This document shows positions 24,702 to 57,661 of a DNA stretch of 64,000 nt, one piece after another (within the stretch, counting starts at the first letter, position 1; each line of letters starts with the position of its first letter). The notes under the pieces were generated by a model. That model made no database searches, had not been told where the DNA came from, and saw nothing but the letters and a program-made list of their open reading frames with translations. The DNA is from Egicoccus sp. AB-alg6-2 (GTDB taxonomy: Bacteria > Actinomycetota > Nitriliruptoria > Nitriliruptorales > Nitriliruptoraceae): the NCBI RefSeq assembly GCF_041821025.1, contig NZ_JBGUAY010000006.1, positions 62,001 through 126,000 of the forward strand, written 5' to 3'. The position numbers were made by a program, and so were the translations under genes.

Positions 24702-27167
24702 TCACTCCAGTTCGAGCGCCCGGGCCAGCAGCGACGCCATCTGGCCGCGACTGAGCGATTCCGTCGGGCAGAAGTCGCGGCCGTCCGACGAGCATCCGCG
24801 GGTGATCTGCGCCTCCGCGAGACGGTTGATCGCGTCCTCGTGGACGCTGCCGGCGTCGTCGCGGAAGTGGTCGCGCGTGGCCGCAGGCAGTCCCAGGGCA
24901 CGGTCGAGCATCGAGGCGCTGGCCGCGCGACTGACCGGTTCGTCGGGCCGGTAGGTGCGCGCGCCGAAGCCCTGGACGTAGCCGGCGTCGGCCGCCCGGT
25001 TGATGGCGTCCTCGTGGACGCTGCCCGTGTCGTCGTCGAAGTGGTCGCGCGTGGCGGGGGGCAGCTCGAGCGCACGCGCCAGGAAGCTCGCCAGCTGGCC
25101 GCGCGTGACGTCGTGGTCCGGGCAGAACCGGGTACCGGAGCGGTCGCAACCCTGCGTGATCCCGTGTGCGACCAGCAACTCGATGTTGGCCTCGTGGACG
25201 CTGCCGTCGTCGTCGGCGAAGGTGCCGCGGGCGGCCGGGGTCGCCGGCCCCTGGGTCCGGCCGAGGTAGCCGCCGGGGCTGATGCGCACGTGCAGCGTCT
25301 CGCCGCCGACACGCACCTGCAGCAGCAGCCACCCGTCGGCGGTGCGGGCGATCTCGGACGACACGTTGGCCGCCGGCTCGGTCGCCGCCAGCACGGTCAG
25401 GTGGGCGGTCGAGGTACCGGTTCGGCGCATCTCGACGGTGGGCGCCGGGGTGCGCTCACGGACCTGGAACGAGCGCCATCCCTGCAGCGGGTCGGTGCTC
25501 CCGCGCACGACGCGGGTGGAGCCCGCCGGCACCTCCTGTCCCGGCAGGGCGACCTGCTGGAGGATCAGCTTCGTGGTGCCGTCGGTCGTGCGTGCGTCGA
25601 CGTAGGAGCGTCCGACCGGGGTGGCCGCCATGTCGGGCGGCAGGTGCCAGTGCTGGGTGAACACGCGGCTGGCCGGTGCACTGGCGCGGTCGAAGACGAC
25701 GACCACCTCGGGGTCGGAGGCGACCAGCACGCTGCGCTGCCGTGGCGCGTTGGGGTAGGAGCGGTCGTCGAACTCGACGAAGTCCGCGCCGGCCCGCAGT
25801 TCGGAGCGGGTCAGGCGGGTCGGTGCGCTGCGCCACGTCTCGCCGGAGACGGTGAGGACGTTGTGGCCCTGCGGGCTGCGCAGGAACTGCCGGTACGCCG
25901 AGGTCTCGTAGCCGACGTGCCCGGAGTCCACCAGCAGGTCGCGGCCGCGCGCGTGCCACAGGATCGAGGTGCGGTCCTCGTGACCGTGGACGTCACGTGC
26001 GGGGCCGAACCGTCCCGACCACCAGCTGTCCTCGGCGAAGGCGCGCTCGCCCTGGCCCCAGCCGCTGCGCCCGAACACGTAGCCGGCGTCGAAGATGGCG
26101 GCCCGGTCTGCCGGCGGCGTGCCCTGGGTCCCGGCGCTGCGGACGTACTCCATCGGCGTGCCGCCGATGGGGTCGGGCCGGTCGTAGGCGTACGAGTCGC
26201 CGATGTTGGGCAGGTAGCCGTTGGGCTTGGTCGCATGGGCGATGAAGTTGGGCATCGCCTCGACCAGCCTGCGGGTGGTCGCGTCGACCGTGTCACCGCA
26301 CTGCTCGGCCATCTGCATCAGCAGCCGGAAGCGCCGGTTGACGTAGAGGTCGTAGCCGACGGCCTGCTCGTTGCTGCCGCCGCCGGGGTGAAGCGCGACC
26401 CGCGCCAGGTTGTCGTTGCGCTCGAGGGCGGCGCGACGCAGGTCGGCGCGGTCGAGCACGCATCCGACGCCGTACAACGCGAGGTTGTCGTCGAGGCCGT
26501 GGTTCCAGTCGCCGCTGTAGTTGGCGAGCAGGAAGTCGGCGTGGCGGGCGAGCGCGGCGTCGAGCCAGTCGTGGGCACCGATCCGCTCGCGCAGGCACAG
26601 CAGCACGTTCGAGCGGTGACGGACCGCCTCGGCGTCCTGGCCCTGCAGGCGCTGGACGTCGTGGGTGCGGGTCCAGTCGCGGGCGATGTCGGTGGCGCGC
26701 TGTACCGCGGCGGCGTCGGGCGAACGGATCAGCGACCCCGTCCAGCGCAACGACTGGAACCAGAGCCGCCAGGTGCTGTCGCCGTAGGGGTTGAGGCTCC
26801 AGTCGACGCGCCCGTCGCGCATGACCTGCACCGCCGGGCGACTGGTGAGCACGACCTCGCCGCGCATGACCTGTTCGACGGGGTTGTCCCGGTCGATGCC
26901 GGAGTAGCCGAGGCAGAGCGAGCCGCGCTGGGCGTCGACGCTGGCCGTGCCGATGTAGGGCTCTGCGGGATGGTCGGCGAGCGGGTCGTGGTCGAGCCCG
27001 GACGGCGGCTCGTCGCCGGTGGGCGCCGGCGGCGCCTCGGTCCGCACGGAACCGTCGATCGGCGTCGAGTCCTCGTCCTGTGCGAGCGCCGGCTGGGCGG
27101 TCATGGTGAGCGGGACGAGCACGGCGGCGGCCGCCACGGCCGCGAACGTACGGAACAACGGTCGCAC
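24702..27167 (-). CDS. Secreted heparinase II/III-like protein with SLH repeats (first copy)
   Basis: An 821-residue exported protein. The GTG at 27,167 is preferred because GGGGGA lies 5-6 bases upstream and a good signal peptide follows (cleavage near PALAQDE); a TTG at 27,200 would add 11 residues. The middle has an all-helical region, then the heparinase II/III-type beta domain at about residues 370-620 with IFDAGYVFGRSGWGQGE, FGPARDVHGHEDRTSILWHA, LLVDSGHVGYE and RSPQGHNVLTVSG. The HGHED block holds the expected catalytic/metal His. The last 190 residues are three SLH repeats with HEDAINR and 'VTRGQLASFLARALEL' units. It probably cleaves acidic polysaccharide while held to the cell surface. 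It is a paralogue of the next protein. Confidence 0.85.
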   Translation of the reverse strand: MRPLFRTFAAVAAAAVLVPLTMTAQPALAQDEDSTPIDGSVRTEAPPAPTGDEPPSGLDHDPLADHPAEPYIGTASVDAQRGSLCLGYSGIDRDNPVEQVMRGEVVLTSRPAVQVMRDGRVDWSLNPYGDSTWRLWFQSLRWTGSLIRSPDAAAVQRATDIARDWTRTHDVQRLQGQDAEAVRHRSNVLLCLRERIGAHDWLDAALARHADFLLANYSGDWNHGLDDNLALYGVGCVLDRADLRRAALERNDNLARVALHPGGGSNEQAVGYDLYVNRRFRLLMQMAEQCGDTVDATTRRLVEAMPNFIAHATKPNGYLPNIGDSYAYDRPDPIGGTPMEYVRSAGTQGTPPADRAAIFDAGYVFGRSGWGQGERAFAEDSWWSGRFGPARDVHGHEDRTSILWHARGRDLLVDSGHVGYETSAYRQFLRSPQGHNVLTVSGETWRSAPTRLTRSELRAGADFVEFDDRSYPNAPRQRSVLVASDPEVVVVFDRASAPASRVFTQHWHLPPDMAATPVGRSYVDARTTDGTTKLILQQVALPGQEVPAGSTRVVRGSTDPLQGWRSFQVRERTPAPTVEMRRTGTSTAHLTVLAATEPAANVSSEIARTADGWLLLQVRVGGETLHVRISPGGYLGRTQGPATPAARGTFADDDGSVHEANIELLVAHGITQGCDRSGTRFCPDHDVTRGQLASFLARALELPPATRDHFDDDTGSVHEDAINRAADAGYVQGFGARTYRPDEPVSRAASASMLDRALGLPAATRDHFRDDAGSVHEDAINRLAEAQITRGCSSDGRDFCPTESLSRGQMASLLARALELE

Positions 27168-27281
27168 GAATCCCCCGAGATCGTGGCGAAGTGGGAACAA
27201 AGATCGAAGATCGTAGGGGCAAGCGACCGGGACCGCCCTTCGGGTACGGGGCGTGCGCGCTCCGCCCTGCCGGTCGGCGGG

Positions 27282-29750
27282 TCATGGGCGCCGTGCGTCG
27301 GCGTGCCGGATCCCGTGGTCGGCCAGCATCATCAGGTGCGAGGTGAGCTGCGCGCGCGTGACCGCAGCGCCGGGAACGAAGTCGCCCTGGGACGACCGGA
27401 TCACCGGCATCACCTCGAGGTGGGCCATCGCGCCGGCGCCGCGCGCGTGGGCGCTGCCGACGGGGACGTCGGGCAGTCGCGCCGTCGTCGCCGGCAGGGC
27501 CCCGTTCCAGACCTGCTCGTGGAGGCGCGTGAGCATCGTGGCGAGCTGACCGCGGGTGACGGCGCCCGCGGGGTCGAAGCTGCCGTCGGTGCGGCCGGCG
27601 ACGATGCCCGCCGCGGCCATGCGACCGATCGCCTCGGCGTGGACGTTGCCGGCCGGAACGTCGGTGAACCGCTTCGTGGTGGCGGCCGTCCGTGGGTGGC
27701 CGCTGGCGGTCACCAGCCGGTCGAGCATGGACGCCAGCTGCGCGCGGGTGACGGTGCGGGTCGGGGCGAACTCGCGGGCGCTGATCCCGTTGATGACGCC
27801 CCAGTCGACGGCGCAGGCGATGTCGGCGGCGAAGGGGGTGCGCCCGAGGTCGGTGAACGTGGCCGGGGCGAACGTGCCGGGCGGGCAGGCCGCGTCGAGG
27901 CTGACGGTGGTGCGCTCGTCGGGCACGGTCGTCGGCTGCAGCTGCGGTTGGGCGACCGCGGACTCGATCAGCCACATGTTGCCGTCGTTGCCCAGTCCGT
28001 AGCGGCGCACGGTGCCGCCGGCGGTGAGCGTGACCTGCAGGTGGCTGCCGACCGCAGTGACGGACGCGGAGACGGCGGTCCCGGTGGGGACGGGGACGAC
28101 GGCGGTCACCATGCGGGTCGAGGTGCCCGAACGGCTCGTGCGGACGACGGGAGCGGCGTGCCAGGCACCAACGGACGGCGCCAGCCAGCCGAGCATCGGG
28201 TCGGTACGCCCGGTGATGACGTCGGTCGAGCCGGCCGGCAGGGTCTGTCCCGGCAGCGGGATCTGCAGCACGTGGGTCTCGAGCGCTCCGCTGGGGTGCC
28301 GGGCCACGGCGCGGCCGCGGCCCTCGACGCGGACCTGGCTGCCGCGGGGCAGGTGCCAGAGCTGGTCGAACCAGCCCGTCGAGCCGCGCGCGGCGCGGTC
28401 CTGGATCAGCAATGCCTGCAGCGAGGTGTCCGCCAGCATCCCGCGGGTGCGGTCGTGGCCGCCCCAGATCCGGTCGTGGACCTCGAAGAACTGCCACGTC
28501 GACCCGCCGCGGGAGCGGACCAGTTGCGTGGGCTGGCGCCGGCGCAGCGTCTCGCCACGGGCGACCAGGACGTTGTGCGCCTCGGGTGAGCGGAGGTGGT
28601 CCCGCTTGGCACGGTCGGTGTAGCCGACGTGGCCGGAGTCGACCAGGACGGGGCGCCCGGACGCAGCCAGCGTGACCGACTGGTGGTCCTCGTGGCCGTG
28701 GAAGTCCATGCCGGGCCCGAACCGCAGGCTGTAGTGCATACCGGTCGCGAACGGCTTCCAGGTGTCGCGACCGAACACGTAGCCGGCGTCGTAGACCTTG
28801 TGCGTGCCGCTGGGGGCGCGGCCCTCGCGGCCGGCGCTGGTGACGTAGGCGGTCGGCGAGCCGGCCACGACGCGGGGCGGCTCGTGGTAGGTGTCGCCGA
28901 TCTGGACGAACCGGCCGTCGGGGCCGGTGGCCCAGGCGACGAAGTCGAGCAGCAACGGACGCCGGGCGGCGATGGCGGACGGCACCGGCTGGCCGCACTC
29001 GGTGAGCTTGTCCGCGACGATGCCCCAGCGGTCGTAGATGAAGCCGCCGTAGCCGGGCGCCTGCTCGTTGATCGCGCCCTGGTGGTCGATGTTGACCGCG
29101 ATGAGCCTGCCGAGCCGGTCACCGGCCTGCCTGCGCCACTCGGCCCGGTCGAGGCGGCAGCCGGCACCGAGCAGTCCGAGCGCCGGATCGATGGCCTGGT
29201 TCCAGTTGCCCGGATCGTTGACGGGGTCGGCGAGCCAGCTGCCGTGCGCGGCCAACGCCGTGCGGATCGCCGGGTCGTCGCCGAGACTGTCGAGACAGCT
29301 GTAGACGGTCGCCCGCTGCCCGGAGTACATCGGGTTCCACACGTCGAGGGGCCGGGAACCGCGGCCGGGCGGGTTGTCCCTGGCGAAGTCGCGCGCGATG
29401 GCCTGGGCGCGTTCGAGGTGGATCGTGGACCTGCCGCGGGCGGCCTCGCGGGTGAGCGGATCGAGCCACTTGAGGCTGTAGAACAGCCGTGCGCTCTCGG
29501 TGTCGAGCTGCGGCTGCGACCAGTTCACGTCCCCGGTGGTCCCGATGCTGACGGTGACGCCCTGGGGCAGCACGACCTTGCCGGCGAGCACGCCCTCGGG
29601 CGTGTTGAGTCCCATGAGTCCGCTGGCCGGCATGCACGAGAACGCCAGCGGCGCGGCCTGTGCCGAAGTGTCGGCGGGGGGCAGGACGAGCAGCCCCAGC
29701 GCCACCAGCACGGCGAGCAACGGACGGGCGGACGGGCGGCGGTGCGACAT
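27282..29750 (-). CDS. Secreted heparinase II/III-like protein with SLH repeats (second copy)
   Basis: An 822-residue exported protein. The ATG at 29,750 is preferred, having GGGGAC just upstream; an ATG at 29,765 is also possible. A signal peptide (Leu-rich core, cleavage near SAQAAPL) precedes a helical domain and the heparinase-type fold with VYDAGYVFGRDTWKPFA, FGPGMDFHGHEDHQSVTLAA, VLVDSGHVGYTDRAKRDHL and RSPEAHNVLVARGE. Three or four SLH-type repeats close the chain (AADIACAVDWGVINGISARE, VTRGQLATMLTRLHE). The pairing of this gene with its 821-residue neighbour, same order and same layout, indicates an old tandem duplication. The substrate is unknown but likely uronate-containing, which fits the ManNAcA-type polymer predicted from the first 8 kb. 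Confidence 0.85.
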   Translation of the reverse strand: MSHRRPSARPLLAVLVALGLLVLPPADTSAQAAPLAFSCMPASGLMGLNTPEGVLAGKVVLPQGVTVSIGTTGDVNWSQPQLDTESARLFYSLKWLDPLTREAARGRSTIHLERAQAIARDFARDNPPGRGSRPLDVWNPMYSGQRATVYSCLDSLGDDPAIRTALAAHGSWLADPVNDPGNWNQAIDPALGLLGAGCRLDRAEWRRQAGDRLGRLIAVNIDHQGAINEQAPGYGGFIYDRWGIVADKLTECGQPVPSAIAARRPLLLDFVAWATGPDGRFVQIGDTYHEPPRVVAGSPTAYVTSAGREGRAPSGTHKVYDAGYVFGRDTWKPFATGMHYSLRFGPGMDFHGHEDHQSVTLAASGRPVLVDSGHVGYTDRAKRDHLRSPEAHNVLVARGETLRRRQPTQLVRSRGGSTWQFFEVHDRIWGGHDRTRGMLADTSLQALLIQDRAARGSTGWFDQLWHLPRGSQVRVEGRGRAVARHPSGALETHVLQIPLPGQTLPAGSTDVITGRTDPMLGWLAPSVGAWHAAPVVRTSRSGTSTRMVTAVVPVPTGTAVSASVTAVGSHLQVTLTAGGTVRRYGLGNDGNMWLIESAVAQPQLQPTTVPDERTTVSLDAACPPGTFAPATFTDLGRTPFAADIACAVDWGVINGISAREFAPTRTVTRAQLASMLDRLVTASGHPRTAATTKRFTDVPAGNVHAEAIGRMAAAGIVAGRTDGSFDPAGAVTRGQLATMLTRLHEQVWNGALPATTARLPDVPVGSAHARGAGAMAHLEVMPVIRSSQGDFVPGAAVTRAQLTSHLMMLADHGIRHADARRP

Positions 29751-29841
29751 GCGGTCCCCGGGCATGGCGGAAGCGACGCGTAGGTCACGCGTCCACCTCC
29801 CCGTCGGTCCTGCCGGGGGGCGGCGTTAGCGGACGCGCTCC

Positions 29842-29893: not shown

Positions 29894-30643
29894 TCAGGCG
29901 TGGAGCAGCTCGGTCCGTGGCGCGATCCGCCGCCACCAGGACCACAGCGTGGCGAAGAAGAGGGCGATGCCGGCCATCTCGCCGGTCTCCTCGACGAGCA
30001 CGGCGCCCTGGTAGAGCGGATCGTCCGTGCCGCGGTCGTAGAGCAGCCCGCCGACGATCTCCACCCCGACCGCGCCGCCGACGTACAGCGCCGCCGAGAG
30101 GATGGCGAGCAGCCGCAGGTCCGCCGGCATGCGCAGCACCGCGGGCAGGTAGATCGGCAGCAGCGCGAGGACCGCGACCGCGCCGAGGATGACCCAGCCG
30201 AACCGCAGGGCGGCCAGCGAGATCCCCAGCTCGTTGACCACCGTGTTGGCCCGCTCGTGGATGCGGGCGCCCTCGTCGAAGGCGAGCAGGACGAACCCGA
30301 GACCGAGCCAGCGCCAACGGGTCGCGTCCGGCAGGTCGCGGGCGCGCAGGCACGCACCGGTCAGCAGCAGCAGGGCGCCGCAGGCGGTCAGCCCCAGCAC
30401 GCTGGCGATGCTCGGGACGTTGAACTCCGAGTCGAGGTGGAACAGCGCGACCAGGCCTTCGCTGCCGGGAAAGACCCAGCCGGCGGTCCTGACGACCGCC
30501 GCAAGGATGCCGAGGACGACGAGCGCGGCGACGAGCCCGGCCGCGACGAACGCGACCCGCCGCCCGGTGGGCAGCGCCAAGCGGACGGTCGTCGGCGGTG
30601 CACCAGGGCGGGTGAGCTCGGCGTCACCCAGCTCCTGGCTCAC
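29894..30643 (-). CDS. Polytopic membrane protein of unknown function
   Basis: A 249-residue protein with seven likely membrane helices, starting at a GTG that overlaps the upstream SLH/CHRD gene stop (GTGA). Polar motifs lie within or near the helices: GFVLLAFDEGARIHERAN at about residue 115 and LVEETGEMAGIALFFATLW near the end. A His and paired acidic residues inside the membrane could bind metal, as in membrane hydrolases, but I cannot assign a family. Translation coupling to the secreted CHRD/SLH protein suggests they share a process at the cell envelope. Confidence 0.6.
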   Translation of the reverse strand: MSQELGDAELTRPGAPPTTVRLALPTGRRVAFVAAGLVAALVVLGILAAVVRTAGWVFPGSEGLVALFHLDSEFNVPSIASVLGLTACGALLLLTGACLRARDLPDATRWRWLGLGFVLLAFDEGARIHERANTVVNELGISLAALRFGWVILGAVAVLALLPIYLPAVLRMPADLRLLAILSAALYVGGAVGVEIVGGLLYDRGTDDPLYQGAVLVEETGEMAGIALFFATLWSWWRRIAPRTELLHA

Positions 30644-31932
30644 CGGAAGGAGGCCACGCCCGGCTGCCCGGGCGGTGGGACGATCTCGCCGGGCGGATCG
30701 GCGACCTCGAGTTCGTCGTCGTCCTCGTCCTCGCCGGCGTCGAGGAGCTGCCCGCGGACCGCGCCGTCGGGATGTCCGTCGGAGGTCACCAGCACGTAGT
30801 GCCCGAAGGGATCCTCCACCAGTTCCGCGAAGCGGTGGTCGACGTCCATCTCCATGACGACGCCGGTGACGACGCCGTCGCTGGCCGCGTCGAGTTGTGC
30901 ACCGGTCGCGAGCGGGATGACGGCGGGCCCGTTCTCGTCGTGCGCACCGAGGTGGATGGCCGCGCCGCCGGAGGAGGCGAACGGACCCGAGACGTCGGAG
31001 ACGTCGATCGTGTACTCGAGGACGCCGTCGAAGGCGTCGACGGTGATGGTCGCCTCGCCCCGGCCCGCGAGCTCACCCTGCCCCGGGCGCCCGTCGTCGT
31101 CGAGGACCGTCAGCCCGCTGAGCGGGACGAGGAACTCGACGATGACGGCGGTCGGCAGCCAGCGCTGCTCACGGTCGCCGTAGTCGGCGCCACGCATCAG
31201 GAACGACGCCATCTGCCCGCGGGTGACCCGACGGGCGGCGCCGTAGTCGCCGCTGCTGTCACCCTGGACGATGCCGACGCCGGCGATGCGCTGGATGTCG
31301 GCCTGGAAGGCGCTGCCGACGGCGTCGGCGAAGTAGACCGTGTCGTCGGCGGGCGGCAGCGAGCCGTCGACCGCGAACGTGTCGGCGTAGTCGATCGCGT
31401 TGGCGACGAAGCGCGCCATCTGGCCGCGGGTCACGCTCGCACCGGGCCCGTAGGAGCCGTCGGCGCGCCCGCTGACGATGCCGGCCTCGGCGAGCTTCCT
31501 GATCGCGTCGACGTGGGTGCCACCGGCGATGTCGGGGAAGTAGGCGGCCTGCGGGTCGAAGGGCAGCTCCTCGCCGGTGGCCACCTCGACCCAGTTGGCC
31601 ACGAAGGTCGCCATCTGGGCCCGGTTGATCGCCGCGCCGGGACGGTAGGTGCCGTCGGTGAAGCCCGAGACGAGCAGGTAGTCGGCGGCGCACTCGATCG
31701 CGTCACCGTGGGTGCCCTGCGCGTCCGCGAATCGCGGTTCGCCCGGCTCGAGCGGGGCGCCGTCGTCGCCGGGGGGCGGACAGACCCGCTCGATGCCGCG
31801 TTCCTCGGACGCGCCGGCCTCCGGGCCGGTGGTCTGCGCGAGCGCGGCCGGGGCGAGTGCGGCCGTCAGGGCCACCACGGCGGACAGCGCAAGCGTCCGC
31901 TGCGGGGCACGACGACGTCGGCGGACATCCAC
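30640..31932 (-). CDS. Secreted SLH protein with CHRD domain
   Basis: A 430-residue exported protein. The GTG at 31,932 is chosen because GAGGGAG lies 8 bases upstream and a signal peptide follows (LALSAVVALTAALAPAALAQ). Three SLH repeats occupy residues 40-250 (GFTDGTYRPGAAINRAQMAT, GRADGSYGPGASVTRGQMAR and one more). Residues 265-400 match the CHRD domain: GRGEATITVDAFDGVLEYTI, AIHLGAHDENGPAVIPL and TSDGHPDGAVRGQLLDAG. CHRD domains occur in secreted bacterial proteins of unknown role. An acidic tail ends the chain. SLH first and CHRD last is the reverse order of the enzyme/SLH proteins in this window. Confidence 0.82.
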   Translation of the reverse strand: MDVRRRRRAPQRTLALSAVVALTAALAPAALAQTTGPEAGASEERGIERVCPPPGDDGAPLEPGEPRFADAQGTHGDAIECAADYLLVSGFTDGTYRPGAAINRAQMATFVANWVEVATGEELPFDPQAAYFPDIAGGTHVDAIRKLAEAGIVSGRADGSYGPGASVTRGQMARFVANAIDYADTFAVDGSLPPADDTVYFADAVGSAFQADIQRIAGVGIVQGDSSGDYGAARRVTRGQMASFLMRGADYGDREQRWLPTAVIVEFLVPLSGLTVLDDDGRPGQGELAGRGEATITVDAFDGVLEYTIDVSDVSGPFASSGGAAIHLGAHDENGPAVIPLATGAQLDAASDGVVTGVVMEMDVDHRFAELVEDPFGHYVLVTSDGHPDGAVRGQLLDAGEDEDDDELEVADPPGEIVPPPGQPGVASFR

Positions 31933-32120
31933 GTATGGGGCTCCCTCGAAGGTTGCAGCACCGCGCAAGGTAGGTGACCGGCGCGCGCGCCGTGGCCGTG
32001 TTGCGGAGACCGGACGCGACGTTCGGTGCCGTGATGCCACGGCGCGGTGGTGCGCTGAGGCCGAGGTAGACCCCGGGCTGACCGCACGACCGCGCCCTGG
32101 CAGCACGGCGGGGCAGCCGG

Positions 32121-33299
32121 TCAGTCGGCGCCGACGGCGGGGCGGCTCGCGGGTTCGACGGGGAGCTGTTCGAGCCAGTCCGCGGGTAGTTGTCCGGCCG
32201 GCAGCGGCCGTCCGAGGTGGTAGCCCTGCCCGAAGTGGCAGCCGGTGCGCGCGAGGAGCCGCTGCTGCCGGCCGGTCTCGATGCCCTCGGCGACCACGGG
32301 CGCCCCGATCTGCTCCGCCAGCGCCAGGATGACCTCGACGACCCCGAGCGAGGGTCCGGAGGCCTCGAGTTCGGCGACGAAGCTGCGGTCGAGCTTGATG
32401 ACGTCCACCGGGAGCCGGTGCAGGTAGGACAGTGCGGCGTGGCCGGCGCCGAAGTCGTCGATCGCGACGCAGACGCCACGCTCGCGCAGCGCCTGCAACC
32501 GGCGCGCGCACCCGTCGAGGTCGGCGACGACGGCGCCCTCGGTCACCTCGACGCACAGCAGCTCGGCGGGGAGGCCGCTGCGTCGCAGGGCCCGCTCGAC
32601 GCGCGCCTGCAGGTCGTCTGCGCTGACGCACTCCGCGGCGAGGTTGACCGCGAGCACCGGCGGCCGGCGACCGGCCGCCTCGGCCTCGCGGCGCCATCGT
32701 TGCGCCTGCTCGCAGGCGATCGACAGCACGACGTCACCGATCTGGCGCATGCGCCCGGTCGCCTCCGCGACCGGCAGGAACGTGTCCGGGGCGCGCAGAC
32801 CGTCGGGGTGGTCCCACCGCACCAGGGCCTCGTAGCCGCGCAGCTCACCGGTCGAGAGGTCGAACACCGGCTGGTAGTGGACGTCGAGTCGACCCGCCTC
32901 GATGGCTGCGACGAGTTCGCGCTCGTCCCTCGCCAGACGCGCGGCCGCCTGCAGCGGGGGTCGGGCATGCCGGGCCAGCCACGCCGCCAGCTGCCCGATC
33001 AGCAGGAAGTACGCCAGCCGGGTTCCCCATTCGACGGGCGCCTGGTGCGTCGCCGAGTCGACCACCTGGTAGGTGAACGGCCCGGCCAGCAGGCCGGCCA
33101 CCGCCGCGGTGGCGAGGGCGGCGAGATGCCCGAAGCGCAGGGCGACGAACAGCACCGGCAGGTAGTAGCCGTGCGGGACGACCACCCCGGCGCCGAACAC
33201 CGAGTTGAGCGCCCACTGGGCGAACAGCAGGGCGGCGACCAGGACCACGCTCGCACGCGGACGGAGGGAGACGGCGGCCAGGAGTGCGCGCGCGGCCAT
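32121..33299 (-). CDS. Membrane-anchored EAL-domain c-di-GMP phosphodiesterase
   Basis: A 392-residue protein. Residues 15-110 form three to four membrane helices with VVVPHGYYLPVLFVALRFGH. Residues 135-375 are a full EAL domain: GYEALVRWDHPDG (the EAL motif), LAVNLAAECV, LCVEVTEGAVV, VAIDDFGAGHAAL, DVIKLDRSFVAEL, VVAEGIETGRQQ and CHFGQGYHLGRPL. The Glu of EAL, the Asn, the Glu of EVTE, the DD pair, the Lys and the later Glu are all kept, so hydrolysis of c-di-GMP is expected. It is the last gene of a co-oriented group with the micropeptide, the large regulator and a second EAL protein that shares the same membrane module. Confidence 0.9.
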   Translation of the reverse strand: MAARALLAAVSLRPRASVVLVAALLFAQWALNSVFGAGVVVPHGYYLPVLFVALRFGHLAALATAAVAGLLAGPFTYQVVDSATHQAPVEWGTRLAYFLLIGQLAAWLARHARPPLQAAARLARDERELVAAIEAGRLDVHYQPVFDLSTGELRGYEALVRWDHPDGLRAPDTFLPVAEATGRMRQIGDVVLSIACEQAQRWRREAEAAGRRPPVLAVNLAAECVSADDLQARVERALRRSGLPAELLCVEVTEGAVVADLDGCARRLQALRERGVCVAIDDFGAGHAALSYLHRLPVDVIKLDRSFVAELEASGPSLGVVEVILALAEQIGAPVVAEGIETGRQQRLLARTGCHFGQGYHLGRPLPAGQLPADWLEQLPVEPASRPAVGAD

Positions 33300-33453: not shown

Positions 33454-33558
33454 CTACAGGCCGAGGTTCTTGATCCCGGCGAAGGCGGGGCTGGCGGCGA
33501 GCATCGCCATGGCGGTCATGACGGAGAGGGCGGTGAGACGGGCCTTGAGGCGGGACAT
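33454..33558 (-). CDS. Signal-peptide-bearing micropeptide (34 codons), candidate signalling propeptide
   Basis: A complete short gene: ATG at 33,558, stop TAG at 33,454, with AAAGG seven bases before the start. The product starts MSRLKAR, has a hydrophobic core with LSVMTAMAMLAA, a textbook cleavage motif ending AFA, and then only GIKNLGL. Export would thus release a heptapeptide or a similarly short fragment. It lies 149 bp downstream of, and in the same direction as, the BTAD/ATPase/TPR regulator. Receptor followed by exported propeptide is the order known for PlcR-PapR and NprR-NprX in Firmicutes. Calling it a pheromone is inference; a small membrane or envelope peptide is the alternative. 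The codons obey the local GC bias, which supports real coding. Confidence 0.7.
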   Translation of the reverse strand: MSRLKARLTALSVMTAMAMLAASPAFAGIKNLGL

Positions 33559-33584
33559 GGCGCAACCTTTGGTGACGGTCGGAC

Positions 33585-33629
33585 GACCGCCGGGCCGGCG
33601 GTCGAGGGGGGACCGCCAGGCTGGCGGTC
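33585..33629. promoter_or_regulatory. Two 19-bp palindromes upstream of the micropeptide gene
   Basis: GACCGCCGGGCCGGCGGTC (33,585-33,603) and GACCGCCAGGCTGGCGGTC (33,611-33,629) are near-copies, each with 9-bp arms, centred 26 bp apart. They end 27 bp before the micropeptide start. They may be paired operators, or two hairpins in the leader RNA controlling its translation. Confidence 0.7.
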
Positions 33630-33660
33630 GGAACGAGACCGCGTCAGGGTCGCGAGCGAC

Positions 33661-33676
33661 TGTCTCTGGAATGTCT
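33661..33676 (-). promoter_or_regulatory. Direct AGACA boxes with 11-bp period (candidate SARP/BTAD site)
   Basis: On the minus strand two AGACA boxes start exactly 11 bp apart (GAGACATTCCAGAGACA). SARP-family regulators with an N-terminal winged helix plus BTAD bind short direct repeats at 11-bp steps near -35. The site is 103 bp upstream of the micropeptide start and just past the stop of the BTAD regulator gene. The same arrangement occurs at 38,887. Confidence 0.5.
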
Positions 33677-33707
33677 CGATCGGGCCGCGGGGCCTGTCAC
33701 CTACCGC

Positions 33708-36700
33708 TCATCCGGTCCGGCGGCCGCGCGTCTCGATCGGCCGGCCGGCGGAGCGAAGGGCGGCGAGGTCGCGCCGGACGGTCGCCTCGCTGACGTCGAG
33801 CAGGCCCGCGAGGTCGGCCGTCGTCGCGGCTCCGCCCTGGTCGGTGATCTGCGTCACCACCCGGGACAGCAGCCAGCGTCGCCGTTGGATCGGATCGTCG
33901 GGCGCCTCCGGTCCGGGGGGAAGCGCGACCTCGACCTCGACGTACTCGGCGGCCCGCAGCGGGCGGCCGCGCGGGGCCGTTGCCGCGGCGACCCGGACCG
34001 TCACCACCTCGGCGGCGACGCGGGCCGCCGCGGTCAGGATGCGCCGGTGCTCGGGGACGTCCTCGGCCCGGGCCCGGTCGTCGGGCGGCAGGCCGGCGAG
34101 CAGCGCGCCCAGGCTGTCCGCGGCATCCGCGGCGACCCGGCGGGCTGCCTCGTCGCGACCGCTGGCGCGGAGCACGTCGTGGTGGGCGAGGTGCACCAGC
34201 CAGGGACGTTCGACCCCGTCGTGCAGCAGGGCGACGGCGGAGGCCGTGGCCTGCTCGGCGGCCGGGAGGTCACCCGATGCGAGGTGCACGCGCCCCTGCA
34301 GGGCACGGATCCACGGTGCCACCTCGGTCAGCGCGTGCCGTTCGGCCAGCGCCAGGGCTTCGCGTACCGACCGGGCGGCGTCGGCGGGCACGCCCTCGGC
34401 GAGCGCCACCTCGGCGGCGCGGGTCAGCAGCTGCGCGTGGCCCCGCACGTCGTCGCCCGCGGCGGCCAGCGCGAGCGCCGTCCTCACGTGGCGGCGGGCC
34501 GCGACGGTGTCGCCAGCACGTAGCGCCACGCCGGCCAACGCCTCGCGGGCGGCGGCCTCGAACGGGGCGTCGCCCGCGTCGGCGAAGAAGTCCAGCGCCG
34601 CGGTCAGTTCGGCGACGGCGCGGTCGTCGTCCCCGAGCACGGCGTGCGCGACGACCCCGAGGTTGAGACGTACGGCGGCCTCGCCACGCCGGTCGGCGAG
34701 CTGGGCGAAGACCCCGGCGGCAGCCTGGTAGTCGTCAAGTGCCGCGGCGAGCAGGCCGCGCACGTAGTGGACGTTGGCGCGGTTGACGAGGTTGATCCCC
34801 TCGCCGCGGGGGAAGCCGATGGCGCGGCAGCGGTCGATCGCCTGCCCGTACAGCGCCGTCGCCTCGGTGGCGTGTCCCGTTTCCATCCGCACCGTGCCGA
34901 GGACGCCGAGTGCCTGCGCCTCCTCGCGCGTCTCGGCGTGGCTTCGGGCGAGGTCGAGCGCGGCATCGAGCTCCAGGGCGGCGGCGCGGTAGCGCTGCAG
35001 TTCCCGCAGGACGGACGCGAGCGTGGTGCGGATCTGCACGGTCGTCGCCGGTGGCAGGCCGGGTGCCCGCACGGCCCGCACGAACAGTGGCACGGCGGCG
35101 CGGCGCTCACCGCCCCAGGCCAGCACCTGCGCCAGCGCGAAGCGGCAGGTGGCCGACAACGGCTCGTCACCGACCGAGGTGGCGAGTTCGACCGCCTGGG
35201 TGGCGGCGACGCGCGCCGCGGCGTGGTTGCCGAGGTGTCCCTCGAGCAGTGCCTGCCGGCGTCGCGCCTCGACCTCGCGTGCCGCCGAGCCGGCCGCGAG
35301 CGTTGCCAGCTCGGCGACCACGTCCTGCTGCGCCGCGCGGTCGCCCAGGACGTCGAGGACGTCGCTGTACTCGGCCAGCAGTGCGAAGCGGGCGGACACG
35401 CTGGCGGGGCGGCGACGCTGCGTCTCGACCGCCTGGCGCAGGTACTCCTCCGCCGCGGTGTAGGCGTGCACGCCGGCTGCCTGCCGGCCGGCGGCACGCA
35501 GGTAGTGGACGGCCTTGCGATGGTCGCCGGCGGCGACGAAGTGGTGCGCGAGCCGGTCGACCGCGCGCGGGTGGTGGTGCTCGAGTGCGTCACCGAAACG
35601 GCGGTGCAGGGCACGGCGGGCCGCGGCCGGCATCGCCTCGAGCACCACGCGGCGGATCTGCTCGTGCTGCAGCCCGAAGCCGTCGTCGCGTTCGCAGAGC
35701 AGCGCCCGGCCCACCAGGGAGGCGGTGGCGTCGGCCACGGTGAGGCGTGGCAGGTCGCAGGCGGCGACGAGGCTGTCGAGGTCGGTGCCGTCGCCGCCGA
35801 CCGCGGCGAGGTCGACCACGTTGCGTTGCTCGGTGCTGAGGCCGTCGAGCCGATCGAGGACCAGGTCACGGATCGTGGCGGGCAGCGGCAGGGCGCCGAT
35901 GTCGCGGTCCCCGCCGGCGGGGTCGCTCCCGCCGCGCTCGTCGGCTTCGGTGAGCATCCGCAGCGTCTCGACGACGAACAGCGGGTTGCCGCCGGTCTCG
36001 CGGTGGAGGCGGGCGGCCAGCTCGGCCTCGGTTCCGCGTGCACGCCCGACAGCCCGCACGACGTCGGCGACGGCCTCGGGGTCCAGCGGCGCCAGCACGA
36101 TCCGCACGGGACGCACGCGACGGTCGAGGTCGCGGACGGCGTCCCAGACCGCTGGTCGTGCCCGTGCCTCCTCGCCCCGGTAGCCGAGCAGCAGGGCCAG
36201 ACCGTGCTCCGGTGCCTGTGCCGCGACGTCGACCAGCACCTGCAGGGAGCTGTCGTCGGCCCAGTGCAGGTCGTCGACCACCACCAGCAGTGGGTCGAGG
36301 CCGGCGAGCGCCGCCATGGTGCGCGCGAGGGCGTGCCGGAGCCGTTGTGCCGCCTCGTCGCTGCGGACGGCGGGAACCTGGCGTTGCTCGGGCGGCAGCG
36401 CCTGGGCGACGGATGGCAGCAGCTGGGCCACGACCCCGAGCCACACGGGCTCGACGCGGTGCCGCAGCTGTTCGACCCGCAGCGGGGTCAGGACCGGTTC
36501 GAGCAACTGGCGCACCGCGGCGTACGGGCCCGCGAGCTCGGGGCCACGGCAGACCGCCTGCAGCGTGCGGAAGCCGCGCCAGAGCCCGTCGTCGACCAGC
36601 TCGGCGAGCAGGCGGGACTTGCCGTGGCCCGGGTCGGCCTCGACCAGCACCAGCCCGCCACGTCCGGCCAGAGCCTGCTCGAGCACGGCGACACCCTGCT

Positions 36701-37538
36701 CACGCTCTCGGTCCCGTCCTGCCAGGGGCAGCTGCGTGGGGAACGGTGGGTGCTGGACCGGCGGACGCGGCGCGGCGACCGCGTCACGTTCGCGCAGGAT
36801 CCGCTGGTAGAGCTGTTCGGTGGCGGCGGCCGGCTCGGTACCCAGTTCCTCGGCCAACACCTCCCGGCAGCGTTCGTACTGGCGCAGCGCGTCGCTGGTG
36901 CGACCGAGCAGCGTGCACAGGCGCATCACCTCGCGGTGGGCGTCCTCGCGCAACGGGTCGTGGTGGGTCAGCCGGCGCGCGAACACCAGCGCCTCGGCGT
37001 AGTCACCGGTGCTGCGGGCCAGGCCGATGAGCCCGGACAGGGCGTCGAGGTGGCGCTGGGCGAGCCGCTGCTGCTCCGCCAGGACCCAGTCGTCGTAGTG
37101 GCCGGCGAGGAAGTCACCGCGGTACAGCTCGACGGCCTGCTCGAGGCTGGCGCGGTCGCTGGCCCGACGTGGCTCGGCGGCGGGCGCCCGGACGGTGTCG
37201 AGGCGGCGTTCGAACTCCTCGACGTCGATCCAGCACGGCGCGTCCCGGTCGATCGCGATCGCGTCCGTCGTGGCCTGCAGGTGGTCCCAGCCGCCGGGCA
37301 GTTCGCCGAGGGCGTCCTGGAGCTGCCACAGGGTGTGGCTGAGCCGGCGCCGGGCGCGTGCGGGTGGCAGGTCGGGCCAGAACTGCGCCGCGAGGCGGTC
37401 CCGGGAGTGGCGGACACCCCGGTCCAGCACCAGGTAGGCCATCAGCGAGCGTGCGGCGCGAGAAGGCACCGGCGGGAGCGGTTCACCGTCGTTGCGCAAC
37501 TGGAAGCCGCCGAAGAGCAGCACCTCCAACGCCGCCAT
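33708..37538 (-). CDS. Large BTAD / ATPase / TPR transcription regulator
   Basis: A 1,276-residue cytoplasmic regulator. Residues 1-95 form an OmpR-like winged helix (LFGGFQLRNDGEPLPPVPSR, RRLSHTLWQLQDALGELPGG). Residues 100-255 are the bacterial transcriptional activation domain (LEQAVELYRGDFLAGHYDDW, RRLTHHDPLREDAHREVMRL). Residues 280-560 are a STAND/AAA-type ATPase with Walker A VEADPGHGKSRLL and Walker B LLVVVDDLHWADD. Residues of about 640-1,150 are a long run of TPR-like helical repeats. The last 55 residues are a DeoR-type helix-turn-helix (TTADLAGLLDVSEATVRRDL), an unusual addition. TPR arrays often bind peptides or partner proteins. The gene lies 29 bp after an EAL gene and before the micropeptide, so it is the likely receptor/controller of this cluster. 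Confidence 0.85.
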   Translation of the reverse strand: MAALEVLLFGGFQLRNDGEPLPPVPSRAARSLMAYLVLDRGVRHSRDRLAAQFWPDLPPARARRRLSHTLWQLQDALGELPGGWDHLQATTDAIAIDRDAPCWIDVEEFERRLDTVRAPAAEPRRASDRASLEQAVELYRGDFLAGHYDDWVLAEQQRLAQRHLDALSGLIGLARSTGDYAEALVFARRLTHHDPLREDAHREVMRLCTLLGRTSDALRQYERCREVLAEELGTEPAAATEQLYQRILRERDAVAAPRPPVQHPPFPTQLPLAGRDREREQGVAVLEQALAGRGGLVLVEADPGHGKSRLLAELVDDGLWRGFRTLQAVCRGPELAGPYAAVRQLLEPVLTPLRVEQLRHRVEPVWLGVVAQLLPSVAQALPPEQRQVPAVRSDEAAQRLRHALARTMAALAGLDPLLVVVDDLHWADDSSLQVLVDVAAQAPEHGLALLLGYRGEEARARPAVWDAVRDLDRRVRPVRIVLAPLDPEAVADVVRAVGRARGTEAELAARLHRETGGNPLFVVETLRMLTEADERGGSDPAGGDRDIGALPLPATIRDLVLDRLDGLSTEQRNVVDLAAVGGDGTDLDSLVAACDLPRLTVADATASLVGRALLCERDDGFGLQHEQIRRVVLEAMPAAARRALHRRFGDALEHHHPRAVDRLAHHFVAAGDHRKAVHYLRAAGRQAAGVHAYTAAEEYLRQAVETQRRRPASVSARFALLAEYSDVLDVLGDRAAQQDVVAELATLAAGSAAREVEARRRQALLEGHLGNHAAARVAATQAVELATSVGDEPLSATCRFALAQVLAWGGERRAAVPLFVRAVRAPGLPPATTVQIRTTLASVLRELQRYRAAALELDAALDLARSHAETREEAQALGVLGTVRMETGHATEATALYGQAIDRCRAIGFPRGEGINLVNRANVHYVRGLLAAALDDYQAAAGVFAQLADRRGEAAVRLNLGVVAHAVLGDDDRAVAELTAALDFFADAGDAPFEAAAREALAGVALRAGDTVAARRHVRTALALAAAGDDVRGHAQLLTRAAEVALAEGVPADAARSVREALALAERHALTEVAPWIRALQGRVHLASGDLPAAEQATASAVALLHDGVERPWLVHLAHHDVLRASGRDEAARRVAADAADSLGALLAGLPPDDRARAEDVPEHRRILTAAARVAAEVVTVRVAAATAPRGRPLRAAEYVEVEVALPPGPEAPDDPIQRRRWLLSRVVTQITDQGGAATTADLAGLLDVSEATVRRDLAALRSAGRPIETRGRRTG

Positions 37539-37567
37539 GCGTCCCCTCGCGATCCTCGGGGGTCAGG

Positions 37568-38785
37568 TTACGCCAGTCCGGCAGGTCCCCTCGCTGCCAC
37601 CACGGTCTCGGCGACGATGATGCGCGAGTGGGCGTCGACCGGCAATGGCCCCGGACGGGCCAGGTGGTAGCCCTGCGCGCCGTGTGCCCCGAGGTCGCGC
37701 CAGGTCACCAGGTCGGCGTGGTGCTCGATGCCCTCGGCGACCAGCTCGCTGCCCGTCTCCCGGGCGAAGCGGATGAGGCAGTCCGCCAGCTTGCGACGGA
37801 TCGGGTCGTGGCGCAGGTTCTGCGTCAGGGACATGTCGAGCTTGATGATCTCCGGCGCCAGCCGCACGATGTGGCGCAGGCTCGCGAATCCGGCGCCGGC
37901 GTCGTCGACGGCGAAGCGCGCCCCGTGCTCGCGCAGCAGCGCCATGGCCCGGTCGAGCTCGTGGTAGTCCTCGACGAGCACGTGCTCGGTGATCTCGAAG
38001 ACGACCGGCCGGCGACTGGTCCGTACCAGGTGCAGCAGGCGAGGGTCGGCCAGGGTTCCGGGCGAGCAGTTGAGGCTGAGTGCCACGTCCTCGGGGAGTC
38101 CCTCGGTGTCGGCGACCCGGACGGCCGCCAGGATGACGGCCACCTCGAGGTCGCGGCCCATGCCCAGATCGTCGGCGCGACGGAACCAGACGTCGGGGGC
38201 CTCGGGCGGCTCGGTGGTGAAGCGTGTCAGGGCCTCGACCGCGAGCAGGCGCCCGTCGTCGAGGGCATAGATGGGCTGGAACACGGGTGTGAAGCGCTGC
38301 TGTTCGAGCAGTTCGCGCACCTGCCACTGGTGGTAGGAGGTGGTCGGCACGGCCGATTCGGTCGCCAACCGCAGCTCGTGGTCGAACCGCGCTTCGAGCG
38401 CGGCCTCGTAGTTGCGGCGCATCGCGGTCACCAGCAGGCCGAGCATGACGCCGATGAGCACGAAGAAGAACGCGCGCAACAGCCAGTTCGCGGCCAGCTG
38501 CGACTCGCCGGTGGCGACGTTCAACGGCAGAAGGGGGCCGCTGAGCAGGCCCGCGGCGAGGCCGGTCAGTGCGCCGCCCGGCGCTCCGAGCAGCAGCGCC
38601 GCCAGCACGATGGCGAGGTAGAAGCCGTGCGGCGCCGCCGTGCGTGATCCGCCGGCGGCATAGGAGATCAGCCAGGCGCCGGCGAGCAGGGCCAGGATCG
38701 CGGACACGCTGAACAGGGGGCGGAAGGTCCCCGACACCCACGGCTGCATGGCGGGGGCGCGAGGGACCGGTTGGGAGACGGACAA
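37568..38785 (-). CDS. Membrane-anchored EAL-domain protein (second)
   Basis: A 405-residue protein if it starts at the TTG at 38,785, which has GAGG nine bases upstream; the ATG at 38,749 would shorten it by 12 residues but lacks any ribosome site. Residues 25-115 hold four membrane helices with AAPHGFYLAIVLAALLLGAP, the same module as in the EAL protein at 32,121. The EAL domain (about residues 155-390) has AVEALTRF, SLNCSPGT, VVFEITEHVLVEDY, FAVDDAGAGFASLRH, EIIKLDMSL, LVAEGIEHHAD and GAQGYHLARP. The metal-binding Glu, Asn, second Glu, DD and Lys are present, so activity is plausible. The stop is 29 bp from the regulator start, so both are probably one transcript driven from the boxes at 38,887. 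Confidence 0.87.
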   Translation of the reverse strand: MSVSQPVPRAPAMQPWVSGTFRPLFSVSAILALLAGAWLISYAAGGSRTAAPHGFYLAIVLAALLLGAPGGALTGLAAGLLSGPLLPLNVATGESQLAANWLLRAFFFVLIGVMLGLLVTAMRRNYEAALEARFDHELRLATESAVPTTSYHQWQVRELLEQQRFTPVFQPIYALDDGRLLAVEALTRFTTEPPEAPDVWFRRADDLGMGRDLEVAVILAAVRVADTEGLPEDVALSLNCSPGTLADPRLLHLVRTSRRPVVFEITEHVLVEDYHELDRAMALLREHGARFAVDDAGAGFASLRHIVRLAPEIIKLDMSLTQNLRHDPIRRKLADCLIRFARETGSELVAEGIEHHADLVTWRDLGAHGAQGYHLARPGPLPVDAHSRIIVAETVVAARGPAGLA

Positions 38786-38886: not shown

Positions 38887-38902
38887 TGTCTCGCGACTGT
38901 CT
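38887..38902 (-). promoter_or_regulatory. Direct AGACA boxes with 11-bp period (second candidate site)
   Basis: On the minus strand AGACA occurs twice with a step of exactly 11 bp (CAGACAGTCGCGAGACA), 102 bp upstream of the TTG start of the EAL/regulator transcript. The ten bases AGACAGTCGC are shared with the site at 33,656-33,665, which supports a common regulator. Confidence 0.5.
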
Positions 38903-38934: not shown

Positions 38935-41115
38935 TCACGCCGACGGTGGGGTGGCGACGCCGGCCGCCACCAGCGCGTCGAGCAGTCGCGCGACCATGGT
39001 GGCGGCCTGGCCGCGGTTGAGGACGGCGCTCGGCTCGTAGTGGCCGTCGCCGTTGCCGGCGACGATTCCCAACGCGGCGAGCCCTTCGATCGAGGCGGCG
39101 TGGGACGACCCGGCGACGTCGGTGAACGCGGGGCGGCCCGCCGGGAGGTCACCGGCCAGCTCGCGGTAGGTACGGGCCAGCATCGCGGCGAACTGGCCCC
39201 GGGTCACGGGGGCGCCGGGCGCGTACGTGGTCTCCGTGATCCCGCCGACGATGCCCAGCTCGGCCAGCTTGGCGATGGCCTCCCGATGGGCCGAGTCACC
39301 GACGTCACCGAAGCTCGTGCGTCCCGCGGGCAGGGGCCGACCGGTCGCCCGCTCGATGCCGCGTGCGAGGACCGACGCGAGTTGTCCGCGGGTCAGTTCG
39401 GTGCCCGGTTGGAACGCCCCGGTGGTCGAGCCGGTGAACACCTGCCAGGACGCGGCGCAGCCGACGCCGGCCGCGTGCGGCGAGGTGGTGGGAACGTCGT
39501 GGAATCCAGACGTCCGGAGCGACGGGCAGGCCTGCTCGAGGGAGCGCGCCCCGGTGCCGTCGTAGGGGACGGGCGTGCGGACGGGCTCGGTCCTGGGCGC
39601 GGGCGCAAGGGGCTCAGGGACCGGCGCCGGCGCAGGAGCCGGTCCAGGCGCGGGCGCCGGAGCAGGAGCAGGCGCCGGAGCCGGCGCGGGCGCGGGCGCA
39701 GGAGCCGGTGCAGGCGCGGGCGCGGGCGACGGTGCCGGAGCGGGAGCCGGGGCCGGGTCCGGTGCAGGCGCGGGATCAGCCGCAGGGGCCGGGTCCGTGG
39801 GGGCGTACGGCAGCAGGGCGGCGTGGGCGTCGAGGAGCCCGCCGGTCGTGGTGATCGCCGACAGCGACGCCAGCGGCCGGACCCCGGCCTTGAGCGCCTC
39901 AGCGAGTCCGGCACCGTCCAGCCCCGGCGCGAGGGAGGCGATCAGCGCCGCCGCCGCGGACGCATGCGGTGCCGCCATCGAGGTGCCCGACGCGTGCGCG
40001 TACCCGCCGCCGGGAACCGTGGAGTAGATGTCGGATCCTGGCGCGCCGAGGTCGACCGAGGCGACGCCGAAGTTGGAGAACGACGAGCGGTTGCCGTGGC
40101 GGTCGATGGACGCCACCGACAGCAGGTTGTGCACGCCGTGCGGGTCCCTGGCCCACGACGCCGGATAGCTCGGCGTCACGTCGATGTCGACGCCGTTGTT
40201 GCCGGCCGAGGCGACCACCAGCGCGCCGGTGGCGTTGCGGATGGCCTCGCGCAGGATGCTGCTGCCACTGCCGCCACCGAACGAGGCGTTGATGACCGTG
40301 GCGCCGTTGGCGTGCGCGTAGGTGATGGCGGCAGCCGCCGCCGAGGTGGTCCCGGTGCCGCCGGGCCCGAGCGCCTTGACCGGCATGATCCTGACGTTCG
40401 GCGCCAGTCCGGCGATCCCGATGCCGTTGTCCGCCACGGCCGCGACCGTGCCGGCGACGTGGGTGCCGTGGCGGTCCTCGACGGCGTCGACGAAGACCTG
40501 GTTGGTGTTGTGGTGGAAGTTCCAGCCGTTGACGTCGTCGACGAAGCCGTTGCCGTCGTCGTCGCGGCCGTTGCCGGCGATTTCACGCGGGTTGGTCCAG
40601 ATGTTGCCCGCCAGGTCCGGGTGGCCGAGGTCGATCCCGGTGTCGACGACGGCGACGACGACCTCCGGTGCGCCGCGGGTCAGCCTCCAGGCCGCCTCCG
40701 CGCGGACGTCCATGCCCGCCGTCCCACCGCTCTGACCGGTGTTGTGCAGCCCCCACAGGCGGCGGAACTCCGGGTCGTCCGTCGCCACCTCCAGCAGGAA
40801 GTCGGGCTCGGCGAACTTGACGTGCGCCTCGTCGGTGAGGGCGGTGATCGTGCGCTCCACCGCGCGGGCCGGCACACCGACCACCTCGGCGTCGAGTCCG
40901 TCGATCTGCTCGAGGGTGTGCAACCCGTGGCGGTCGAGGAGTGCGGCACGGTCCTGCTCGACCACGTCGTCCTCCCACGCGACGACGACGCGGCCCGGGA
41001 CGACGTCGGGGTCCGCGGGCGCCGGCGCGGAGGTCGCGGCAACCGACGAGACGGCCAGTCCGGCCAGCGACAGCCAGGACACCAGGTGCGACCGGACAGA
41101 GGCGTGGCGGGTCAC
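38935..41115 (-). CDS. Secreted subtilisin-like protease with Ala/Pro linker and SLH repeats
   Basis: A 726-residue exported S8-family serine protease. The GTG at 41,115 has GGAG six bases upstream and is followed by a signal peptide. An I9-like propeptide covers residues 35-110 (VVPGRVVVAWEDDVVEQDRA). The catalytic domain holds the triad: Asp in VVAVVDTGIDLGHPDLAG, His in VEDRHGTHVAGTVAAVAD and Ser in HASGTSMAAPHASAAAAL. The oxyanion Asn is in VVASAGNNGVD. A linker of about 75 residues is almost pure Ala-Pro, which gives the low-complexity DNA at 39,590-39,790. Three SLH repeats end the protein (LTRGQLASVLARGIERATGR and two more). It is probably a wall-bound processing protease, and could in principle process exported peptides from the adjacent micropeptide cluster. 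Confidence 0.9.
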   Translation of the reverse strand: MTRHASVRSHLVSWLSLAGLAVSSVAATSAPAPADPDVVPGRVVVAWEDDVVEQDRAALLDRHGLHTLEQIDGLDAEVVGVPARAVERTITALTDEAHVKFAEPDFLLEVATDDPEFRRLWGLHNTGQSGGTAGMDVRAEAAWRLTRGAPEVVVAVVDTGIDLGHPDLAGNIWTNPREIAGNGRDDDGNGFVDDVNGWNFHHNTNQVFVDAVEDRHGTHVAGTVAAVADNGIGIAGLAPNVRIMPVKALGPGGTGTTSAAAAAITYAHANGATVINASFGGGSGSSILREAIRNATGALVVASAGNNGVDIDVTPSYPASWARDPHGVHNLLSVASIDRHGNRSSFSNFGVASVDLGAPGSDIYSTVPGGGYAHASGTSMAAPHASAAAALIASLAPGLDGAGLAEALKAGVRPLASLSAITTTGGLLDAHAALLPYAPTDPAPAADPAPAPDPAPAPAPAPSPAPAPAPAPAPAPAPAPAPAPAPAPAPGPAPAPAPVPEPLAPAPRTEPVRTPVPYDGTGARSLEQACPSLRTSGFHDVPTTSPHAAGVGCAASWQVFTGSTTGAFQPGTELTRGQLASVLARGIERATGRPLPAGRTSFGDVGDSAHREAIAKLAELGIVGGITETTYAPGAPVTRGQFAAMLARTYRELAGDLPAGRPAFTDVAGSSHAASIEGLAALGIVAGNGDGHYEPSAVLNRGQAATMVARLLDALVAAGVATPPSA

Positions 41116-41171
41116 AGCGGTCTCCAGGATGCGACGGGGCGGGCGGCGACGTGCCGCACGCCGTCGATCGC

Positions 41172-41189
41172 GGCGTGTCGGGACACGCC
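41172..41189. promoter_or_regulatory. 18-bp palindrome upstream of the subtilase gene
   Basis: Arms GGCGTGTC and GACACGCC around GG lie 57-74 bp before the protease start. This may be an operator, or a weak terminator for the broken ANTAR gene. The rest of the 215-bp gap shows nothing clear. Confidence 0.4.
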
Positions 41190-41330
41190 CAGCCCGTCGG
41201 CCATGCGCCCCTGCGGCCACAGCAGTTGGTCAGCGGACCATCATGCAGGTGCACGCAGCGCCCGCCACGGGCGCGACGCGGCAGGGGGCCGGGACCGGCG
41301 CGCCCCGAGGGATCACGACGGAGGCGGCGA

Positions 41331-53876: not shown

Positions 53877-53940
53877 TCTTGCCTCCTCGAAATGGTTGCT
53901 CTCCAGCCCGAGGAACTCGGGCGCGGGAGTCGAAAACCCA

Positions 53941-57596: not shown

Positions 57597-57661
57597 GCGC
57601 CGGACCGACCGCCGGCTCATACGGCGAGGCAGCGCCGGACCGGCCGCCGGCTCACACGGCG
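57597..57661. repeat. 35-bp tandem duplication at the end of the subtilase gene
   Basis: The stretch GCGCCGGACCGACCGCCGGC at 57,597 recurs with one change at 57,632, and the following bases also match, giving a period of 35 bp. The second copy runs into the last codons of the minus-strand protease gene. Confidence 0.8.

Follow-up and report, generated by a model that had tools for sequence, protein, structure and literature searches.

What is the function of a gene of only 34 codons that lies directly behind the gene of a large regulator? The question is raised by a locus of Egicoccus sp. AB-alg6-2 (assembly GCF_041821025.1), found in a stretch of 64,000 nucleotides (contig NZ_JBGUAY010000006.1, positions 62,001 to 126,000) which we call the window and whose own numbering is used here. 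Four co-oriented genes lie in a row on the minus strand. EAL1 (37568-38785, TTG start), a predicted membrane EAL-domain cyclic di-GMP (c-di-GMP) phosphodiesterase, is followed after 29 bp by the gene of a 1,276-amino-acid regulator (33708-37538). After a gap of 149 bp comes the micropeptide gene (33454-33558), whose product, MSRLKARLTALSVMTAMAMLAASPAFA followed by GIKNLGL, is a candidate propheromone, and 154 bp further on EAL2 (32121-33299), a membrane (DUF4118-like) EAL protein. An earlier note on this DNA had described the same genes with the same positions and gaps, and Pfam agrees with the domains it named, EAL twice and BTAD, AAA_16 and TPR in the regulator. We consider it likely that the locus is a peptide-pheromone circuit, sensed by an AfsR-type SARP-STAND-TPR regulator and self-controlled.

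When 61 related genomes were searched in six frames, the micropeptide appeared directly downstream of the regulator in the genus and family, the family-level orthologs being in metagenome-assembled genomes labelled Nitriliruptoraceae. In a sample of 396 genomes spread evenly across the phylum, 15 carried an ortholog of the regulator, and 10 of these 15 belong to the same order as the window. In a second class of Actinomycetota 34 of 345 genomes did so; one member of this class (G222) is identical in sequence to L100, which carries the label Acidimicrobiia. The orthologs compared go down to 37% identity. We read 450 nt after each regulator and called signal peptides by a strict open reading frame (ORF) rule based on n-region charge, a hydrophobic core and an AxA site. 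Counting L095 and G645, which are one contig, once, 44 distinct orthologs had readable downstream DNA. We found that an ORF of 28-34 amino acids with a signal peptide, ending 5-8 residues past the AxA site, follows 42 of the 44 orthologs and none of 12 paralogous BTAD-ATPase-TPR genes. As background, about 4,840 tiles of 450 nt gave one unrelated ORF. The two loci missed by the strict rule are G646, with a looser version of the ORF behind a perfect operator, and G493, with a deletion in the peptide gene. Judged by this conservation, the 34-codon ORF is a genuine gene, far beyond chance. The earlier note had proposed that TPR regulator and exported propeptide form an RRNPP-like arrangement, had named lack of the frame in close relatives that retain the regulator as evidence against this, and had advised a search for signal-peptide ORFs behind BTAD-ATPase-TPR genes of related genomes; the search separates orthologs from paralogs, and since the pair, frame included, is kept across two classes, the refutation it had named did not come about.

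The conservation acts on the amino acid sequence. Nei-Gojobori counts over 24 pairs gave a pooled proportion of synonymous differences (pS) of 0.46 against 0.12 for nonsynonymous differences (pN), and thus the micropeptide sequence is kept as protein and not as RNA. Peptides ending in ILRPGH and in AVVNIR had no amino acid change at all while their synonymous sites differ. This substitution pattern indicates that the micropeptide is under purifying selection. The export signal is kept at 43 of the 44 loci, although the signal sequence drifts. No family for the micropeptide was found in Pfam or NCBIfam.

The residues left after the AxA site number 5-8 across loci and are clade-specific. The window's GIKNLGL is joined by GVRNLGL, GIRNIGF, GTLNMG, VVNMG, GIRNM, SISDMS and SVSDMS, by AVVNIR, NGDWGV, TGDFHR, ILRPGH, IWRPGHN and TWRPGHG, and by others. 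In a maximum-likelihood tree built from 40 regulators the mature ends cluster by receptor clade, and four genomes with two receptors (G476, G607, G681 and G700) each encode two distinct peptides, one per clade. Mature-peptide distances correlate best with those of the TPR region (r 0.67; partial correlations 0.39 for TPR given SARP and 0.06 for SARP given TPR), a co-variation that we take as suggestive because relatedness confounds it.

One locus separates the mature peptide from its signal sequence. In G493 (locus L142, 5268-5598, contig G493:C72), the sister of G361, the signal peptide is deleted while the operator and an AGGAGG ribosome-binding site are retained. The ORF that is left, ATGCTGCGCCCCGGACACGGACCTAGCTAA, encodes MLRPGHGPS, and the propeptide of G361 ends in QPALA followed by ILRPGH. 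G493 would thus be a natural bare-pheromone variant in which the pheromone part remains without its signal peptide. Such a variant is expected where function resides in the short C-terminal peptide and the target of that peptide lies in the cytoplasm. The observation comes from one locus of a draft genome, where an assembly fault is possible.

In the regulator an N-terminal SARP part (winged helix-turn-helix and BTAD) is followed by a STAND ATPase, a TPR superhelix and a C-terminal DeoR-type helix-turn-helix. Pfam places BTAD at residues 104-248 and recognizes AAA_16 and TPR_12/TPR_8; its match to a DeoR/HTH_11-type helix-turn-helix, residues 1227-1274, was absent from the earlier note. AlphaFold2 modelled the N-terminal half with a predicted local distance difference test score (pLDDT) of 85.8, and, confidently, the TPR superhelix with the helix-turn-helix behind it, at a mean pLDDT of 91.5. 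In Foldseek the N-terminal part matched the SARP domain of AfsR first (8k60/8hvr), with EmbR also among the top matches, and the best structural matches of the TPR part were peptide-binding TPR proteins such as LGN. The window regulator has a Walker A motif GHGKS and a Walker B motif LLVVVDD. The Walker A lysine is lost (GxGTS) in the orthologs of G007, G018, G019 and G026 (residues ~302-312 of the window protein, alignment A1), and the STAND ATPase of this subclade may be degenerate.

The peptide gene is preceded by a repeat of the form TGAGAYA-N5-GAGACA (GAGACA-N5-GAGACA). In the window this is AGACATTCCAGAGACA (33661-33676, minus strand), an exact AGACA-N6-AGACA. The exact form occurs at only two sites in the window's 3.74-Mb genome (24 contigs), here and upstream of the EAL1-regulator pair, where it reads AGACAGTCGCGAGACA (38887-38902, minus strand). 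A slightly longer repeat pattern gave 15 matches over 37 genomes. Twelve of them are located at the peptide gene or precede EAL1, and the other three are at an unlinked EAL gene in G018, in G005 and in G035. Peptide promoters match the repeat with two or fewer mismatches in 35 of the 44 cases, against 2.7 expected from shuffles. AGAYA-like pairs have a period of 11 bp in 28 promoters, of 9 bp in five, of 13 bp in four and of 10 or 12 bp in none. SARP target promoters are marked by a 3' repeat 8 bp from the -10 element and by direct repeats at an 11-bp period, the latter being the spacing given for SARP sites in PMC10936776.

The operator has a second part. In many clades an element with the consensus TGAGCGCAAGGT sits at a near-fixed distance, 22-26 bp further upstream of the repeat; the window copy, TGAGCGGTAGGT (33699-33710, minus strand), lies 22 bp before the direct repeat and overlaps the regulator stop codon. 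The element was present with two or fewer mismatches in 18 of the 44 promoters, compared with 0.17 expected from shuffled flanks. We rejected the idea that it is stop-codon context since it also occurs away from the stop codon, including upstream of the G018 EAL gene, and since its distance from the repeat is near-fixed. The bipartite pattern matched 13 times in the 61 genomes, ten times at the peptide gene, once at the G018 EAL gene and twice at sites judged to be chance. Operator matches set aside as chance, with no peptide or EAL gene after them, are G361 C1:814736, G005 C9:22947 and G036 C1:970844, as well as G019 C242:14438, which lies inside a GAGCGCCAGG tandem repeat. An operator of two parts fits a regulator whose two ends each have a DNA-binding domain; assigning each part to one of these domains would be a guess.

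Further elements were seen in and around these promoters. The G035 match (L067 13337, minus strand) is a perfect repeat that lies some 1.7 kb upstream of the regulator and fronts a tyrosinase-like gene, possibly an extra target. Several peptide promoters without the repeat carry T-rich CTGTAGTTTTTTCGGTT or CTAGTTTTTACC elements, perhaps a changed operator. In the window, tandem hairpins, ACCGCCAGCCTGGCGGT and ACCGCCGGCCCGGCGGT (33586-33602 and 33612-33628), lie between the operator and the micropeptide start, and in the ILRPGH clade pairing of TCCTCCT with AGGAGGA could mask the Shine-Dalgarno sequence. Such structures are possible means of translational control.

The earlier note had also paired both EAL enzymes with the circuit, and this held for EAL1 and not for EAL2. 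The catalytic motifs EAL, N, E[IV]TE, DDxGAG, KLD and EGIE can be seen by eye in both proteins. EAL1 adjoins the regulator, on its upstream side, with an operator in front, in the window genome, G002 and G003. In G018, which belongs to another genus, a membrane EAL protein of 52% identity is encoded on another contig behind a full bipartite operator. Because the operator fronts both EAL1 and this unlinked homologue, control of EAL1 by the circuit is likely in the window's family. GGDEF enzymes occur in all genomes tested for them, and the 24 GGDEF matches of the window genome indicate that c-di-GMP signalling exists there. EAL2 directly follows the peptide gene in the window genome only. What follows the peptide gene already varies among members of the genus, and EAL2 was therefore dropped as a conserved partner; it is possibly read from the peptide promoter. 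Elsewhere the peptide gene is followed by a subtilase (G002), by HisKA kinases (G007, G009, G018, G019 and G026), by PAS/HisKA or PAS proteins (G222, G437 and G446) or by a receiver protein. At many loci, including most of the ILRPGH clade, the gene after it is on the opposite strand.

Taken together, we propose the following circuit. The large SARP regulator would bind the bipartite operator ahead of the propeptide gene and, in the window's genus, also the operator before its own EAL1-regulator pair. The propeptide would be exported by means of its signal peptide and cut after the AxA site to release the C-terminal 5-8 residues, here GIKNLGL. The peptide would then re-enter the cell, probably through an oligopeptide permease; OppA-type binding proteins were found in all seven genomes tested. 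Once inside it would bind in the groove of the TPR superhelix and switch the STAND regulator, which would activate the peptide promoter and the EAL1-regulator unit. The switched regulator would in this way exert feedback on peptide synthesis and act on c-di-GMP through the phosphodiesterase EAL1.

Several points weigh against this proposal. Most of the genomes compared are metagenome assemblies. The GAGACA repeat is absent from the peptide promoters of the AVVNIR, AVLNML and TGDFHR/NGDFHR clades (L163, L135, L141, L139, L170, L168, L169 and L158). Since some orthologs are without the Walker A lysine, the textbook STAND ATP switch would not be universal in the family. Shared descent confounds the correlation of peptide with TPR distances as proof of pairing. 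For seven genomes of the second class no operator other than that of the peptide promoter was found.

This last observation is what would be seen if the micropeptide were a small effector comparable to afsS, a small gene next to afsR. In that case the regulator would switch on the micropeptide gene but sense something else, and the micropeptide would act in the envelope or outside the cell and not as a ligand. Among relatives with a solved structure AfsR is the closest, and it binds an 11-bp direct repeat within the promoter of afsS, which it targets (PMC10936776). However, what cleavage leaves is just 5-8 residues long, is specific to clades and tracks the TPR region best, and retention of the mature peptide without an export signal in G493 would be odd for an envelope or extracellular effector. 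We regard an afsS-like role as unlikely. The same locus points the other way for a circuit confined to the producer, in which unprocessed or leaked propeptide binds the regulator, perhaps as a secretion gauge, with no communication between cells. G493 encodes a bare peptide in the cytoplasm, as such a circuit would allow, and self-targeting appears in several genomes. Maintenance of the export signal at nearly all loci despite drift of its sequence argues against this, as does the presence of peptide permeases, and we hold it to be improbable, to the same degree as the afsS-like role.

A regulatory leader or arrest peptide of the SecM/MifM type, sensing secretion and controlling translation of the next gene, would account for a signal sequence joined to a conserved extreme C-terminus. 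A signalling gene does follow at some loci, and in G009 it overlaps the peptide ORF as ATGA. But where the following gene is encoded on the other strand there is no downstream target for arrest, the C-termini share no common arrest motif, and G493 is without the signal sequence. This explanation we consider very unlikely. The reading that we prefer is the pheromone circuit sensed by the SARP-STAND-TPR regulator.

How does this circuit compare with known systems? It resembles the RRNPP systems of Firmicutes and phages (Rap, Rgg, NprR, PlcR, PrgX and AimR) in its cytoplasmic TPR receptor, supported by Pfam and AlphaFold2, in the adjacent small propeptide with a Sec-type signal (called by rule) and in the short C-terminal signal, following the features listed in PMC10075063. 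It differs in that the receptor has ~1,270 amino acids instead of 250-500, falls outside the Rap/Rgg/NprR/PlcR/PrgX/AimR lineage with AfsR-type SARPs and LGN-type TPRs as its closest families, combines SARP and STAND with two DNA-binding domains, has a dedicated bipartite operator and is found in Actinomycetota instead of Firmicutes. Arbitrium-like viral copies were also considered, and no relative was found in viral contigs. MalT and other STAND proteins have, like the architecture predicted here, an ATPase switch and a TPR-like sensor arm that controls a DNA-binding domain. The ligand of MalT is a sugar and its helix-turn-helix is of the LuxR type, whereas here the likely ligand is a gene-encoded peptide, the DNA-binding domain is a SARP and the Walker A lysine is lost in some orthologs. 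With AfsR-AfsS of Streptomyces the regulator shares the SARP-STAND-TPR order, the N-terminal OmpR-type winged helix-turn-helix with BTAD, and direct repeats at an 11-bp period (for AfsR targets, PMC10936776), the binder here being putative. In contrast to AfsR-AfsS, the small target gene here encodes a propeptide of 28-34 amino acids with a signal peptide, a second element at near-fixed distance belongs to the operator, a DeoR-type helix-turn-helix is added at the C-terminus of the regulator, and the TPR sensor has a candidate ligand; the part of the AfsR paper drawn on names no peptide trigger. The circuit would thus work like RRNPP, yet the family and size of its receptor and its phylum place it outside that group, and the regulator belongs with the large SARPs.

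The surroundings of the locus are rich in surface proteins with S-layer-homology domains, among them subtilases, heparinase-like lyases, a CHRD protein and a phosphodiester glycosidase (2705-4951, 24702-29765, 30640-32697, 38935-41220, 51705-53975 and 57652-59811). G+C content falls to 0.65 at 52001-54000, compared with ~0.73 elsewhere in the window, and this tract is perhaps a younger insertion.

A paper of 2023 (PMC10075063) presents the signals of actinobacteria as, in general, small molecules of enzymatic origin and signalling by peptides as a trait of Firmicutes. The RRNPP software covered only Firmicutes and viruses and receptors of 250-500 amino acids (PMC10075063), and SARP-TPR receptors were therefore outside its reach. 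Full-text searches aimed at it, which left subscription papers and preprints uncovered, turned up no account of a SARP that senses a peptide, nor of an RRNPP-like system in Actinomycetota. On balance, we lean slightly toward a separate class of bacterial peptide quorum sensing that lies outside Firmicutes and uses large SARPs of NLR/STAND-like type as dedicated receptors of gene-encoded pheromones of 5-8 residues. A conserved unit of receptor, propeptide and operator would extend intracellularly sensed peptide pheromones to Actinomycetota. It would also give a specific idea of what the sensor half of large SARPs, regulators that in relatives govern antibiotic production, may bind. The clade-specific sequences GIKNLGL, ILRPGH, AVVNIR and SISDMS are readily synthesised candidates. 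If this is true, a role as peptide receptor may extend to the orphan AfsR-type large SARPs of Actinomycetota, and peptide signalling would be linked to c-di-GMP in some lineages.

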